From assembly GCA_937973965.1 (NCBI GenBank), contig CALJJQ010000014.1:1-64000 (forward strand): 64,000 bases of DNA. Reading direction: 5' to 3'. The notes under the pieces were generated by a model, which searched no databases, had not been told where the DNA came from, and worked only from the letters and a program-made list of their open reading frames with translations. The translations under genes and the position numbers were made by a program. Shown here piece after piece: positions 5,103 to 56,500 of the stretch. The stretch comes from an uncultured Calothrix sp. (GTDB lineage Bacteria; Cyanobacteriota; Cyanobacteriia; Cyanobacteriales; Nostocaceae). Position 1 is the first letter of the stretch; each line of letters opens with the position of its first letter.

Positions 5103-6418
5103 GCAGTGAACCGACCTTTGGTCAAAACATCATCTAATTTGGGATTGAAATTGGTTCTTTTGTATTTACCATCGGAACCGAATACACGCAGTACGTTCTA
5201 TGAAAACTCGGTCATTACAGTTTGGCAAAAGTTTTAAAGCAGTTAAACTGCACTCCTTCGGGCAGCCAACCCGAAATTGAGCAAACCTCTACCATCCCTA
5301 GCAATTTCCTTTCCCTGCGAGTTATCAAGTAACTTCGGACAACCTCAGTCGCAACAAGCACGCCTGATATTAAACGCCCCCAACCGGAAATCACTCAATG
5401 CGTAGCAAAAGCACAACAGGGATTTCTTGCGATTAGACAATCCCCACATAACCTTCTGTAGACGCGCTGCGCACGGCTTCTAGCAGAGAGAAATTTACAG
5501 GTGTTAAATTGTCTAGCCCGAAGGTACTTTTACGTCATCATACATACTCAGAATTTTCACTCCGAGATATTGCCTGTAAACTTGCTCGTCACACATGTAG
5601 AATCGGTAACAATCCGTTTATCAAGCTAACAAGCAGTGAGGTGGAACCATTACTTCACTATTGTAGATTTATAGCGTACTTCCAGAAAATATTTCTGGAT
5701 ATCAAATCTAGTAAATCGAGTAATTAGTATAGCATTAGTACGACAAATACGGAGATTTTTTGCATTGTAACTTAAAAACATTTGCCAATTGCATAGACTA
5801 CAATCAGTACGATTGCATTATCCTAGTACTAGAACACAATCAAGCCAATACATGAAACCACAGACACGCAAACACATTGCACGAAAATTCATCCCAAGTC
5901 CCAAATCCATCAGGGAAAGTTTACTGGAAGATTTATTCTTTCAGCCACATCAGTTCCGACCCATAGGGAAATCCCTTTTCTGGGGAATAACTCAACTGTA
6001 GCCAAAATTCAAAATATTCCCAAAACTCTCAGTGAGCAGCCTACATCTAATGTTGACACCAGAACCAATGAAAGTGGTTTTTCCCTATTCCCTACTTCCC
6101 ACACCCTTTCAAGTAAGTCAGTGACGGAAGTAGGGATTAGTACGAAAATCAACCCATTACAAAGAACTGATCACACCCTTCCCTGACCCCAAAAGCCGAA
6201 ATACTCCCTGCACCGTCCCGGAGAAGATGTTGGTCAAGTGTCAATAAATACCTTATTAATTACTGATTGAAGACAGGGAATAGCCTAAAACGAACGGTAT
6301 ATTTGTCATTATAAACAGACGCGATATGTCGCGTCTCTACCAATTCCCCTATCCCTGTACAAACGGGACATGTCGCGTCTCCCAAAAACCACAGACAGGA
6401 AAGCAGATTAGATTCCAC
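5103..6418. other. long gene-free region with repeat debris
   Basis: No confident gene in 1.3 kb. Visible items are a palindromic TAGACGCGCTGCGC...GGCTTCT unit near 5460-5495 that belongs to the leader-element family, heptamer runs, and near 6260-6345 a degenerate inverted piece of the MITE family best seen at 45940-46114. An ATG at 5851 opens a 49-codon frame (RKHIARKFIPSPKSI...) that might be a gene relic, but nothing confirms it. Confidence 0.45.
6317..6336. repeat. dispersed hairpin repeat, AGACGCGA/TCGCGTCT type
   Basis: A palindrome of arms AGACGCGA and TCGCGTCT around a short TATG centre. It belongs to the covarying hairpin family discussed in the findings. Confidence 0.7.
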
Positions 6419-16731: not shown

Positions 16732-16796
16732 TAAATTTGTCAATATCCGTATCCTATCGTTATTGATGGTCTAATGAGAAAAATACTAAAGACTAA

Positions 16797-16820
16797 AGAC
16801 GCGATATATCCCGTCTCTAC
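16797..16820. repeat. dispersed hairpin repeat (AGACGCGATATATC type)
   Basis: An imperfect hairpin, AGACGCGATA followed by TATCCCGTCT and CTAC. Member of the covarying hairpin family. Confidence 0.6.
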
Positions 16821-23789: not shown

Positions 23790-23818
23790 GTAGAGACGAC
23801 CCGTCGGGTCGTCTCTAC
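23790..23818. repeat. dispersed hairpin repeat, GTAGAGACGACCC type
   Basis: Perfect 13-bp arms GTAGAGACGACCC and GGGTCGTCTCTAC with loop GTC. The outer arm GTAGAGACG/CGTCTCTAC is shared by the whole family, while the inner arm differs between copies. Confidence 0.9.
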
Positions 23819-26388: not shown

Positions 26389-26862
26389 AAAATCATCTTT
26401 GGCTGAAAATAATTCCGCATCGCCACCATAGCTGTCTGTATTAGTTTATCAATTTGAGGAAGGGAATAGGGAGTTGGGATTGAGGATGGGAAAAGAGAAT
26501 ACAGCTGAGAGGATGTTTGTCAAGTATTAATTATCACTATTTTGACTATTGTCCTGACTCTGGACATGGGGTTATAAAGCTGATTTTTCCTTCGAGAGTA
26601 TAGATGCGACATGTCGCGTCTCTTCCCATTCCCAAAAACGATAGTTCAAGTATGAAAAATAACTTTTTCAACAGCCTTTTAGAGAATACAGGCAAACGAA
26701 GGATAAAAGAAGTATTCGGAAAGAGATGAATGTATGATTTCTACTATTTTTTCAGCGTTTAGACAACTATACTTTCTATTGCTCAGAGGATATATAACTA
26801 CTTTCCGAGTCTAAAGGATGAATTTTTTAGCTGTACAAATATAAGTATTTTCAGGAATAATC
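26389..26862. other. spacer with an inverted MITE copy
   Basis: No gene. Most of 26506-26684 is a MITE; the remainder is the leader of the secreted protein gene, with AGGAA before its ATG. Confidence 0.6.
26506..26684. mobile_element. MITE family 1 (GAGGATGTTTG ends), inverted copy
   Basis: Starts TGAGAGGATGTTTGTCAAG and ends near CAACAGCCTTTTAGA. It is the inverse of the copy at 45940-46114 and contains the same internal palindrome (ATGCGACATGTCGCGTCT). Confidence 0.8.
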
Positions 26863-32842: not shown

Positions 32843-33330
32843 TCTATCACCGCAAATCGGATTTTTCAGATATTTTTCTCTCAAACTACTAGTCTGTCAA
32901 AAAATAAATCTGTTGTAACGTGAATTCGACGGATTGTAAACGCTATAATCTCTGTGAATCAATGATTTTGAAAGTTAAGGTTTAAAGTAACCTCATCCAT
33001 TAGTTGAGAACAAACTCAATAACTGACTGATTCCAGGTTTAATGATTTTATTCTCAACATCCTAGGAGGTTTTTAAAAACTTCTATTTCCTACGAATATT
33101 ACTGGACAAGAGTTTCAGGCTTTATAACTTATCGAACTCACGTTGTTTCAAGTTGAATCCGTGCATCTATACTGTGGTGGTAAACTGCCAATCAACAGTG
33201 CGATCGCGTTGATTTCTTCGTATTTCCCAAGCAGTAAGTTGAGACCAGGGAGTAGAGACGACCTGTCGGGTCGTCTCTACGCCGAATGATTGCTTCCGTT
33301 ACGGTTTTATGTTTAATTGCACCTACCTAC
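32843..33330. other. spacer downstream of glbN
   Basis: About 490 bases with no gene. It holds the hairpin at 33252-33280 and a TTGAGAACAAACTCAA inverted repeat near 33005. Confidence 0.5.
33252..33280. repeat. dispersed hairpin repeat, GTAGAGACGACCT type
   Basis: As at 23790 except one inner base: the left arm ends ACCT against GGGT, leaving a G-T wobble. Confidence 0.85.
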
Positions 33331-38085: not shown

Positions 38086-38275
38086 TAGAGGATGTTTGAA
38101 AAGTCGATTTTAATACTTCACAAGCTTGTTTTTTAGAAGTAGAGACGTGACATGTTGCGTCTGTACAGATTTATAACGACTTTATAATGATAAATATATG
38201 GTTTGAGCCTATTTCCTACCTTCAATAAATGGTTGATAAAGAATTTATTAATACTTGACAAACATCCCCTTAGAC
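38085..38275. mobile_element. MITE family 1, copy with TTAGAGGATGTTTG end
   Basis: Left end TTAGAGGATGTTTG, right end CAAACATCCCCTTAGA; the ends are inverted repeats with one mismatch and one extra base. Interior has AAAGTCGATTTTAATACTT and the degenerate palindrome AGACGTGACATGTTGCGTCT. No ORF. Confidence 0.85.
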
Positions 38276-40883: not shown

Positions 40884-40912
40884 GTAGAGATGAACCGATG
40901 GGTCATCTCTCC
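40884..40912. repeat. dispersed hairpin repeat, GTAGAGATGA type
   Basis: Arms GTAGAGATGA.CC and GG.TCATCTCTCC. Compared with the copy at 23790, the inner G-C pair is replaced by a T-A pair on both sides. Confidence 0.8.
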
Positions 40913-45939: not shown

Positions 45940-46114
45940 TTAGAGGATGTTTAAAAAGTCATTTTTAATACTTGAATTATCGTTTTGGGAGCAGGAAGAG
46001 ACGCGACATGTCGCGTCTGTACTCTCGAAGGAAAAATCAGCTTTATCACCCCATGTCCAGAGTCCGAACGATAGTCAAAATATTGATAATTAATAATTGA
46101 CAAACATCCTCTAA
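45940..46114. mobile_element. MITE family 1, best copy
   Basis: 175 bp with perfect 13-bp inverted ends TTAGAGGATGTTT and AAACATCCTCTAA. Holds the palindrome AGACGCGACATGTCGCGTCT at 45999-46018. No ORF. Reference copy for the family. Confidence 0.92.
45999..46018. repeat. perfect 20-bp palindrome inside the MITE
   Basis: AGACGCGACA paired with TGTCGCGTCT, no loop; same family as the free-standing hairpins. Confidence 0.85.
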
Positions 46115-50823: not shown

Positions 50824-50851
50824 GTAGAGACGCGATATATCGCGTCTCTAC
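50824..50851. repeat. dispersed hairpin repeat between hglD and hglC (GTAGAGACGCGATA)
   Basis: Perfect 14-bp arms GTAGAGACGCGATA and TATCGCGTCTCTAC, no loop. It sits in the narrow gap between hglD and hglC, where a hairpin could influence transcript processing. Confidence 0.92.
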
Positions 50852-50871
50852 CAATATCGCGTCTCCACCGC

Positions 50872-52662: not shown

Positions 52663-52691
52663 AGTAGAGACCACTCATCGGGTGGTCTTTA
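52663..52691. repeat. dispersed hairpin repeat (GTAGAGACCACTC)
   Basis: Arms GTAGAGACCACTC and GGGTGGTCTTTAC, pairing with two wobble-type mismatches. Compared with 23790, the inner C-G and G-C pairs are swapped in step. Confidence 0.8.
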
Positions 52692-53004
52692 CCCATCAAT
52701 TGCAATGGGTCATGGGATTTTGGATTTGGTTTTGTCGTCTTCTAGCTTGAATAATTAATACTCAACATATTTCACTCGATAAATTTAACAATAAAAATAA
52801 ATTAGTTCTTGCTGTAACTGTGAGTACATTTTGTGATATAAATTTGATGAAATTTCCCACATATCCTTCATCAAATCTTGTTAGCTACAGCAATCGATGA
52901 AAGCTATACTATAAACATCAAGTTAAATAATTCGTAATTTGTAATTCGTAATTACGAATTAGTTTGAAGATGTTGAAAAGTTTTGTCTTCTGTCTCCTAA
53001 TTTT

Positions 53005-53499: not shown

Positions 53500-53527
53500 G
53501 TAGAGACGTAACATGTTACGTCTCTAC
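53500..53527. repeat. dispersed hairpin repeat between hglE and the small membrane gene (GTAGAGACGTAACA)
   Basis: Perfect 14-bp arms GTAGAGACGTAACA and TGTTACGTCTCTAC. The inner part is completely different from the copies at 23790 and 50824, yet still fully paired. Confidence 0.93.
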
Positions 53528-53542
53528 ATACGTCTGTAAACC

Positions 53543-56500
53543 CTACTGACTAACCAATGTTGTACGTCCATTCAATCCGTAACCAACTTCGGTGATATAG
53601 CGGTTAGGGTCGTGGAGTTCAGCAATGATGTTTTTGCTGGATTGGTCAGCGTTGATGGTGGGGTTGAGATCAATTGCTCGACAGAAGACCTTTTCCCATT
53701 CCCAATTCAGAGTTTTGGTGAGTCCAAATAGTCCAGCGCTGATGGGACTGTAGTTGAGGTTGTGGTCGAGTCCAAAAGCACCATCTAAACGAGCAACTGT
53801 GCAAAAACATGCTCTACCGAGTTTTGCTGCTTGGTTAAGGGAGGTTTTCAGGTGTTTAGCGATGAAAAATACGTGTTTCACAACGGCTTTTTCGGTGGGG
53901 ATGTAAGGAATACGTCCATTTTGGTTGAGTTCAAAGCGGGGATTGACATGGATAAATGCAGCAATATTCCCAAAATGTTGGCAGATTGCATTCAGTTTTT
54001 CCTGGAGGTGGGTTTCATCCATGTTGTCAAGTTCGACCCGTTCAATCCCGGAGGGTAGGGGTGAGCGTTGGGACACGATGGTTTCGGGGAAACTCAAAAC
54101 GACGATTTTCCAACCTAGGTGAGTTAGTTCGCTTGCAAGTTTGGTGGTGGTGAGGGTTCCATCATCGGTAATTAAACCGATGTGTCCCTCTGGTAAACTA
54201 AACTCTAAATAATCGGGTTGGGGAAGGGTTTTGAGAAACACCTGACGACGTAGGGGACTTTTGTTGAGACTTGCTGTTAATGGTTCGCTGGGGGTAGTTG
54301 GTTGGGTTGCTTTTTGTTCCTCTGGTTGATTGACTTCAGGTTGACTTAATTGAGTTAATTCAGACTGGGAGTGGTGATTTTTTTTTTCTCCACCTGTCAG
54401 GGTTTGCAGGTAGTTAACAATTTGACCGATGGTGCGTAAATCCCCCAGGTCTTCCACGTTGGGTTGGGGAAGGTCGGGATAGATTTCCTGCATTGCACCG
54501 AGGATTTCCACCCGTTTGATGGAGTCAATCCCCAGGTCTGCTTCCATATCCATGTCTAGTTCCAACATCTCCACCGGATAACCGGTTTTTTCACTGGTTA
54601 TATTTAGTAGAGTTTGGGCCATTTCCTCTGCATTCACACTGGAACTGACTGGAACTTCCGGTTCAATGGGTGTAGTGGCTATTGCGATCGCCGGAGTTGG
54701 TGTTTCTGGGATTACCGATGTAGTTGCGTTGGCGAAGTTCACCGAAGGTATGGCATTTACGGTAATTGGTTCTCTGGCGGAGACTAGATTGTCGATATTT
54801 GTAGTTACGGATGTGACGATTGGCTCCGTATTTACACTCTGGGTTGCAATTGGTGCAACTGCTTGAATTGAGACAGTTTCCCCTCCTTGACCCATCAAGG
54901 ATTGGATATAATTGACAACTTGACCAATTGTCCGTAGTTCGCCTAAATCTTCAACGTTAGGTTGGGGTAAATTTGGATAGGCTTCCTGCATTGCACCGAG
55001 GATTTCTACCCGCTTGATGGAGTCAATCCCCAGGTCTGCTTCCATATCCATATCTAGTTCCAGCATTTCCACTGGATAACCGGTTTTTTCGCTAGTGATT
55101 GCGAGTAAAGTTTCTGCGACATCACCTGCTGCAACGCTGGGAGTAGGTATACTTGCAGTTGGTGTTGGTTGGGGAACGGGGTTCGCAGGTGTTTCCTGTA
55201 CTGGTTTTTGAACTACTGGATTGACTGGTGTTTCCTGTACTGGTTTTTGAACTACTGGATTAACAGGTGCTTCCTGTACTGGTTGTTGAGTGATAGGTGC
55301 AACTACTGGATTGACTGGTGCTTCCTGTACTGGTTTTTGAACTACTGGATTAACAGGTGTTTCCGCGACCCGAACCTGACCAGAAAGCAAACCTTGATAT
55401 TCCTGTTGGAGGAATTGGAAAAAGTTTTGAGTATAGGCTAATTGGTTTTGGAGATACTGTTCATGTACCCGGAGGGTTTCAGCTTGCTGAGAGCTAAATT
55501 GGGTCATGCTACGTTCCAAACTTTCCGTCACCATTGATTTAATATTTTTGGTAGCGGAGGTTTGGTCAATTAGCAGCTTGTGCTGTTGCTGTAGGAGTTG
55601 GAAAAATGTCTCAACGTATTTTTGCTGATGGTTGAGATAGAGTCCGTGAACCTGCAAATTCTCGCTATTATTTTGCTGAAACTGACTGAGAACGAATTCC
55701 AAGCTTTCGAGAACTTGTTGGTAATTAATTCGCTGATTTGGTACTTGTTCCATCGTTGATTTGACAACAGGTGATGTGGGGTTTGGTTTCGATGGTTGGG
55801 TGGGGGAGTTAGTTGCACTAGTTTCGACACCAGTGGTGATATCTGGTGGAGTTTTTTGGCTATGACCACTAGGTAATTGGAAAGAAGTAGCACTAGAACT
55901 ACTGGTAGGTGGAATCCCTGGGACTATTTCCGATTTGATATCAACGATTTTGGTTTTACCGTTAGTGGAAGCTTTATTCACCGTTGATTGGGGAATGACC
56001 ACTTTCAGGTTCGGGTCTGGTTGCAGTGCTTCTGCGATGGTTTTCGCTGTTTTGGGGGAAACGTAGTTAACACCATTGAGACGCACATTCAACGCTTTGG
56101 GATTTTCCGGTACAGGAGGTGTGGGAGGTTTTTGCAGAGGGTCAATATCCCGTAACTGAACCCCATGTACCCGTAACTGTACAACCGCTTCCCGTAAACT
56201 GCGATCGCTATTTTTTCTGTCACTGGGATTTAGGGCGATCGCGATGTGGGGTCTTTCACCTAAAATATCCTGAACCAGGTTGGTTAATATCCTGCGTGGA
56301 CCAAATTCAACGAAGCAATATCCCCCCGCATTGTAAATATTCTCAATTTGCTGTTTAAACAGTACTGGATTCGCTAAATGGGTTTCCAGAATTTGTTTAA
56401 TTTTCTGCGGTTCCTGGGGATAGGGATGGGCTGTAACATTACTATAGGTAGTAATCTGTTGAGGTTTAAACTCTGTCGATTTGAGGGCGATCGCAAAGGA

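Follow-up and report, generated by a model that had tools for sequence, protein, structure and literature searches.

The window, a 64,000-nt stretch of contig C14 of genome G000 (a 5.4 Mb draft), holds eleven hairpins of the form GTAGAGACG...CGTCTCTAC, each 28 or 29 nt long (Table 1), where the original prediction had announced at least ten palindromes with common outer arms. Ten of them were found by searching for the GTAGAGACG/CGTCTCTAC arms with up to two mismatches per arm and the weaker copy at 6313-6340 was added separately, and the count excludes an overlapping match and a loose one at 54801, whose gap spans 17 bases. The sequences listed in that prediction are present at all nine places it named, one of which, 52663, was set one base early, and some copies do lie, as it held, inside the longer repeat that it called MITE family 1, which is common to the copies at 26598 and 45995. 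Ten of the eleven copies are located between ORFs (list of ORFs of at least 120 codons), and the 138-codon ORF overlapping the copy at 40884 was judged to be spurious. A comparison of the window with Rfam at the gathering score gave no match.

Pairing is perfect in three of the eleven copies (23790, 50824 and 53500), and the remaining eight are imperfect, with one to four G-T or unpaired positions each. One to three positions are unpaired at 6313, 16793, 26598, 38139, 40884, 45995 and 52664. The idea that both arms change together is borne out only in part: it applies between the ACCC, CGATA/CGACA and TAACA types, but not to ACCC and ACCT, which represent a one-sided change because only one base separates the copy at 33252 from that at 23790, and several copies carry changes that are not compensated.

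Table 1. REP palindromes and an adjoining half-arm in the window (coordinates of the 64,000-nt stretch).
Position	Strand	Feature	Remark
6313..6340	.	decayed 28-nt REP palindrome, CGATA/TGTCG	three unpaired positions and one G-T
16793..16820	.	decayed 28-nt REP palindrome, family CGATA	three unpaired positions
23790..23818	.	perfect 29-nt REP palindrome, family ACCC/GGGT (GTAGAGACG ACCC GTC GGGT CGTCTCTAC)	G001 ortholog with two one-sided changes
26598..26625	.	28-nt REP palindrome, family CGACA	middle of a longer dispersed MITE-like repeat (MITE family 1)
33252..33280	.	29-nt REP palindrome, ACCT/GGGT	one G-T pair as sole defect; right part alone left in G001
38139..38166	.	28-nt REP palindrome, TGACA/TGTTG type	inside a ~2.6 kb stretch absent from G001
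40884..40912	.	decayed 29-nt REP palindrome, ACCC family	two unpaired positions and one G-T
45995..46022	.	28-nt REP palindrome, family CGACA	same MITE-like repeat as 26598
50824..50851	.	perfect 28-nt REP palindrome, family CGATA/TATCG	same sequence as the hairpin with the RAYT stop codon (contig C52, G000)
50854..50868	.	extra right half-arm ATATCGCGTCTCCAC adjoining the 50824 palindrome	half-palindrome iteration
52664..52692	.	decayed 29-nt REP palindrome, ACCC family	missing with flanking bases (~70 bp in total) at the orthologous site of G001
53500..53527	.	perfect 28-nt REP palindrome, family TAACA/TGTTA	

The hairpins are highly repeated in this genome and in a sister species of the same genus, G001, whose single contig of 5,985,875 bases runs colinear with the window apart from gaps, each long block being 91-97% identical. 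Strict matches to AGAGACG N9-12 CGTCTCT number 158 in G000 and 269 in G001, with none in either control, and for the 13-mer of the first copy G000 has 132 occurrences on the two strands together (control 0). We found 72 hairpins in 412,681 sampled bp of G000 and 118 in 679,875 bp of G001, compared to 3 and 6 in the reversed sequences (0-4 per region against 2-55 found, 9 against 190 in total). In both sampled genomes they are mostly intergenic. The 29-mers are mostly ACCC/GGGT or TAGC/GCTA, with intermediates almost absent, and the 28-mers are mostly CGATA or CGACA, with few TAACA or TAATA. The feet of the 29-mers are largely paired, pairs 1-4 being Watson-Crick in 63, 66, 69 and 54 of 76 distinct sequences, and in the 28-mers pairs 2 and 4 are Watson-Crick in just 33 and 21 of 73 distinct sequences, because many of these copies end in GTAC, GAAG or GGAG, not in GTAG. 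If the transposase reads GTAG, the 28-mers with such feet would be passengers.

Alignment of orthologous sites allows us to examine what happens to single copies after they have landed. G000 and G001 share 349,064 aligned positions at 95.8% identity. The 72 hairpins of G000 comprise 34 aligned, 11 with small gaps, 10 partial, 9 absent, 7 without synteny and 1 too large, and the 118 of G001 comprise 35, 9, 16, 7, 49 and 2 in the same order. With seven rows dropped and gapped, partial and absent pairs excluded, the ortholog count is 35 unique gap-free pairs. Among the 490 base pairs of these hairpins, 429 are the same in both species, 58 have changed on one side and 3 on both sides, and 2.1 two-sided changes are expected by chance from the observed per-site rate. 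The 61 changed pairs consist of 36 one-sided changes between Watson-Crick and mismatch, 16 between Watson-Crick and G-T, 2 two-sided changes from paired to paired, and 7 others. Since two-sided changes are near their chance expectation, landed copies show no sign of pairing upkeep, with the limit that a weak effect could be missed at 35 loci. At this divergence the data do not support the part of the original prediction in which single copies were held paired by selection or by a copying process that corrects them: unpaired changes at these 35 hairpins are as frequent as expected, the kind of outcome that the prediction itself had set against it.

Selection that keeps each hairpin paired after insertion, for instance as an RNA structure at the 3' ends of mRNAs, with compensation in place, is consistent with two other features of the data. 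First, copies favour convergent and avoid divergent intergenic regions: 33 are codirectional, 18 convergent and 9 divergent in G000 (background 0.55/0.16/0.29), and 54, 37 and 18 in G001 (background 0.52/0.17/0.31), with 5 further copies per genome lying within called ORFs. Second, orthologous hairpins diverge by 6.6% and their flanks by 10.3%, although the detection of hairpins itself needs conserved arms. Against it stand the one-sided changes counted above, and the likely sense strand as well, where G-T is barely commoner than A-C (77 against 64 in the two cyanobacteria, 16 against 9 at the named loci); this lack of a clear asymmetry speaks against selection at the RNA level acting through G-U as opposed to A-C. 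Furthermore, a T-rich stretch (at least 5 T in the next 8 bases) follows only 8 of 117 cyanobacterial copies and 10 of 54 other copies, so the hairpins are not typical intrinsic terminators, and that candidate was rejected. We regard selection on each landed copy as quite unlikely.

A further observation concerns half palindromes which, together with about 2 to 20 flanking bases, are iterated in tandem. We obtained 23 such matches, of which 21 lie in G001 and a few are two whole hairpins, and the draft of G000 may collapse iterations. Sixteen of the 23 begin within 3 nt of the palindrome centre, a count taken without a null model. Examples are found at 50824-50868 in the window and at L232 1392-1480, and the pattern occurs beside the RAYT gene of a Rhodothermales bacterium. 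Such iterations suggest replication or repair jumps at the hairpin centre, and together with the 2 of 61 changed ortholog pairs that went from paired to paired on both sides they are what could be expected if template switching copied one arm onto the other and so perfected imperfect palindromes in one step. We consider this very unlikely as the source of the paired arms: orthologs show no excess of two-sided changes, and as many as eight of the eleven window copies are imperfect.

The sites themselves are polymorphic between the two species. The differences between G000 and G001 are mostly deletions, some of them between neighbouring hairpins, tandem or half-arm changes, or MITE insertions. 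Candidate empty sites are few, an example being G001:C1:1468590, where G000 carries seven-base repeats, and among the alignments of the two genomes that we examined there was no clean empty site of a bare hairpin with a clear duplicated target. Next to a half hairpin of the TAGC family, G001 has a MITE-like element (about 175 bp, C1:3790059-3790233) with a CGACG hairpin, which G000 lacks at about 67477 of contig C14. Neighbouring hairpins with common outer arms also seem to recombine, exchanging inner arms at one site.

The same outer arms are found far outside the genus. A scan of named genomes with the outer arms alone returned at least 115 stretches from about ten phyla, as named in the records; among the matches listed are Bacteroidetes, Spirochaetales, Chloroflexi, Geobacter, Desulfuromonas, Planctomycetaceae, Patescibacteria, Zixibacteria, Cloacimonadota, Acidobacteria, Methylococcales and many cyanobacteria. 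At least 124 hairpins with exact outer arms lie in these stretches. Of 86 hairpins in the first 80 loci, 19 fall within called ORFs of at least 80 codons, some of which are RAYT genes. The hairpin is multi-copy in 25 of 25 genomes examined, with 2 to 283 copies and a control of 0 in all; these genomes were all picked for having a match, 21 of them are not cyanobacteria and many are metagenome bins. Isolates among the genomes with hairpins include Hymenobacter perfusus and Parabacteroides distasonis.

Between families, the pairing of the inner arms is kept. Among the matches listed there are at least 55 distinct 10-nt inner arms, and of the 220 cells of their first four inner pairs 190 are Watson-Crick, compared to a shuffled maximum of 100. 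Every pair type is seen at each of these four positions, and all four positions are paired in 32 of the 55. The 44 non-cyanobacterial inner arms alone give 150 of 176 cells (shuffled maximum 83), while the 9 cyanobacterial inner arms of 11 nt give 32 of 36, which is not above their shuffled maximum of 32 (again among the matches listed). In this respect the original prediction holds good: the hairpin is important, and families differ from one another by paired changes of their inner arms. In some families the first inner pair is repeatedly a T-G wobble (TGCC..GGCG and TGGTG..CACCG; genomes G293, G332 and G342), which makes the palindrome strand-specific.

A candidate for the copying agent is present in the genome of the window. 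Contig C52 of G000 carries the gene of a REP-associated tyrosine transposase (RAYT), an open frame of 199 aa (L282:1934-2533), whose stop codon TAG lies within GTAGAGACGCGATATATCGCGTCTCTAC, a 28-base sequence identical to that of the copy at 50824 in the window, and this CGATA hairpin bears both GT[AG]G feet. A CGAAA-type hairpin is located in frame inside the gene, and a second CGATA hairpin, with one arm mismatch, 106 bp downstream of it. The protein has the motifs MPNHIHG, AWQPRF and YIINNP. The RAYT gene of G001 is interrupted by stop codons and has ACCC-family hairpins before, inside and after it, with a hairpin at the end of its first open piece. At the site of this hairpin-RAYT-hairpin arrangement of G001 (C1:2766773-2767502), G000 has a lone hairpin (C23:103343) and no RAYT match, indicating that the unit was either gained in one species or lost by recombination in the other.

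The NCBIfam family REP-associated tyrosine transposase is the best match for all eight proteins scanned, the C52 protein among them, with E values of 3e-15 to 1e-18 that are all below the curated cut-off. We aligned five proteins from hairpin-bearing loci, picked because hairpins are near, into a profile, A1, in which both His of the HuH motif, W151, Q152, R161 and the Y-I..N-P motif are invariant (5 of 5), NH[IFV]H is present in four and the full YIxNNP in three. W151, Q152 and R161 are spaced like W94, Q95 and R104 in the account of Quentin et al. (PMC6006769), according to which these residues contact GTAG in E. coli. The sole solved relative of A1 is 4er8, TnpArep (E 1.3e-7; 0.013 for the C52 protein alone).

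At least nine of the at least 115 loci, which had been chosen by their hairpins with no RAYT search involved, have a match to the RAYT clade with a hairpin inside or no more than 400 bp away, one of the nine matches being a 52-residue piece only. A search with A1 returned 30 loci, one per genome, of which 16 have hairpins and 14 none, and a search of 39 genomes with the NCBIfam family returned 30 loci, 6 with nearby hairpins and 24 without (reversed control 1); the loci without hairpins in both searches imply that other RAYT subgroups exist. With the Y1_Tnp family, 14 genomes of other phyla gave 30 loci, 4 of them with hairpins, and at two of these four (L224 and L235) the gene lies outside the RAYT clade. 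A RAYT gene detected in this way in the Rhodothermales bacterium is flanked on both sides by identical hairpins, and hairpins are also present at both gene ends in Dysgonamonadaceae and Hymenobacter, where the 5' hairpins lie within the longest reading of the frame. IS200-type Y1 transposases were rejected as the agent, none of the 12 Y1_Tnp loci of the order holding a hairpin. In a planctomycete, two non-RAYT Y1 loci have a hairpin some way off, and on contig C91 of G000 we read a Y1 gene followed by a 422-aa TnpB-like ORF.

Across 292 genomes of the phylum, RAYT genes (A1, E 1e-12) occur in 60 and hairpins in 77, with both in 41, RAYT only in 19, hairpins only in 36 and neither in 196 (Fisher p 6e-15, relatedness ignored). 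Where the RAYT match reaches E 1e-55 or better, 17 of 18 genomes have hairpins. The family of the window is represented by 32 genomes, of which 30 contain hairpins and 16 a RAYT gene. That family accounts for 14 of the 36 genomes with hairpins and no detected RAYT, detection being based on the best ten candidates scored per genome.

Furthermore, the hairpins of a given RAYT locus resemble each other. The first four bases of the inner arms are identical in 33 of 42 comparisons within a locus and in 52 of 948 between loci (17 loci, L192 left out and one L306 hairpin counted twice). The distance between RAYT proteins is weakly correlated with that between inner arms (Mantel r 0.17, p 0.015, n 24; L192, a near copy of L291, L299 and L302 left out). 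Among 29 open frames of loci L285-L314, 12, that of the window's own genome among them, have a hairpin between the HuH and Y motifs and 17 have none there. As a separate observation, a hairpin lies within the RAYT frame after the HuH motif in 19 loci (L286, L287, L290-L297, L300, L306, L119, L148, L166, L175, L192, L198 and L283), and before the Y motif in the 17 of them where this motif was found.

The hairpins could instead be the cores of MITEs that spread solely with these elements, their common outer arms being coincidental to MITE structure. Many copies do lie in repeats: among 187 copies in the sampled 1.09 Mb, 64 have repeated sequence on both flanks and 59 on one, many CGACA copies sharing one MITE-like repeat, many ACCC and CGATA copies a second and many TAGC copies a third. 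In the region of the 40884 copy and in the sampled flanks, hairpins are often embedded in repeats resembling GGGAGTA, as well as in long dispersed repeats of two or three kinds. Yet the other 64 of the 187 copies have no repeated flank in that sample, RAYT genes of several phyla are accompanied by these outer arms, and the hairpin that is alone in G000 is accompanied by a RAYT gene in G001. Spread as MITE cores alone is quite unlikely.

Taken together, we consider it highly likely that the hairpins are double-foot REP elements of RAYT (TnpA_REP), of which paired versions would be mobilised and copied while landed copies decay, and RAYT is very probably the copying agent. Under this hypothesis RAYT would bind the single-stranded hairpin through the GTAG foot and the next bases, which form the constant outer arm, and the inner stem would need only to pair, whatever its sequence. 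Only paired versions would be copied, and each RAYT lineage would give rise to a family distinguished by its inner arms, some of these families later riding as passengers in MITE-like repeats. Selection would likely act when RAYT mobilises a copy and not after landing. If only paired hairpins are copied and families are founded anew, arms appear to change together between families even though the pairing of landed copies is not maintained.

The small dispersed repeats that Elhai and co-workers reportedly described in Nostoc in 2008 are very small mobile repeats of filamentous cyanobacteria and probably an overlapping set. The closest description that we found is that of TnpA_REP (RAYT) subclass 2.4, with its double-foot REPs, by Quentin et al. 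(2018, PMC6006769), which by the table of that paper equals group 4 of Bertels. The two agree in their distribution (Cyanobacteria, Bacteroidetes and scattered phyla), in GT[AG]G at one REP end with its reverse complement at the other, in REPs that flank the gene and are also inserted in frame between HuH and Y, and in the motifs NH[IFV]H, WQ and YIxNNP. As this description matches, the system fits subclass 2.4 with in-gene double-foot REPs and its kind is already known. The passages on the subclass mention neither an outer arm GTAGAGACG that stays constant while the inner arms vary freely nor inner arms that are concerted within a locus, and they are likewise without half-arm iterations, passage in MITEs or a compensation test at orthologs.

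Other REP systems share part of these features, as far as the portions of the papers cited here describe them. The GTAG-tagged REP families of Di Nocera et al. (2013, PMC3733652) are likewise mostly intergenic, RAYT-associated palindromes of 20-40 bp, with RAYT genes flanked by the repeat as observed here, and they include sub-families with complementary stem changes and the cyanobacterial GTAG-12, -15 and -16, a likeness by description and not by comparison of consensus sequences. Their GTAG is an unpaired tag at one end, whereas GTAG and CTAC are paired here in perfect copies, in most 29-mers and in copies beside RAYT genes. In Stenotrophomonas (Nunvar et al. 2010, PMC2817692) RAYT genes are also flanked by inverted REPs, and altered REPs keep the palindrome, which those authors read as selection for complementary mutations; unlike that reading, our orthologous copies give no sign of selection in place, and it is from family to family that pairing is preserved. 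REPINs (Bertels and Rainey 2011, PMC3116915) are likewise REP-based mobile units tied to RAYTs, Nostoc punctiforme included, and compensatory changes are described as common in them, but they are REP doublets with a spacer, while here we have single symmetric palindromes. A literature search with six literal palindromes retrieved no paper, and GTAGAGACG alone gave, among the matches listed, only papers unrelated by title. In the passages covered by the literature search, we found neither an outer arm of nine constant bases combined with inner arms that are free yet concerted locally, nor half-arm iterations or a compensation test at orthologous sites.

We tentatively suggest, as a possibility that we consider doubtful, that one RAYT clade has kept the nine-base foot GTAGAGACG through about ten phyla, that the freely drifting, locus-concerted inner stem may serve as an address tying REPs to their own RAYT, and that the recurrent half-palindrome iterations beside copies may be footprints of nicking at the hairpin by this RAYT.

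Collectively, these results separate two things that are often confused for REPs, namely pairing that is kept between families, where only hairpins would be copied, and pairing that is kept in each copy by selection. The orthologous sites of two species that are 96% alike display the former but not the latter. A common dispersed palindrome of cyanobacteria and Bacteroidetes is hereby tied to a probable transposase, and since an open RAYT gene resides in the same genome, the copying step is directly testable.
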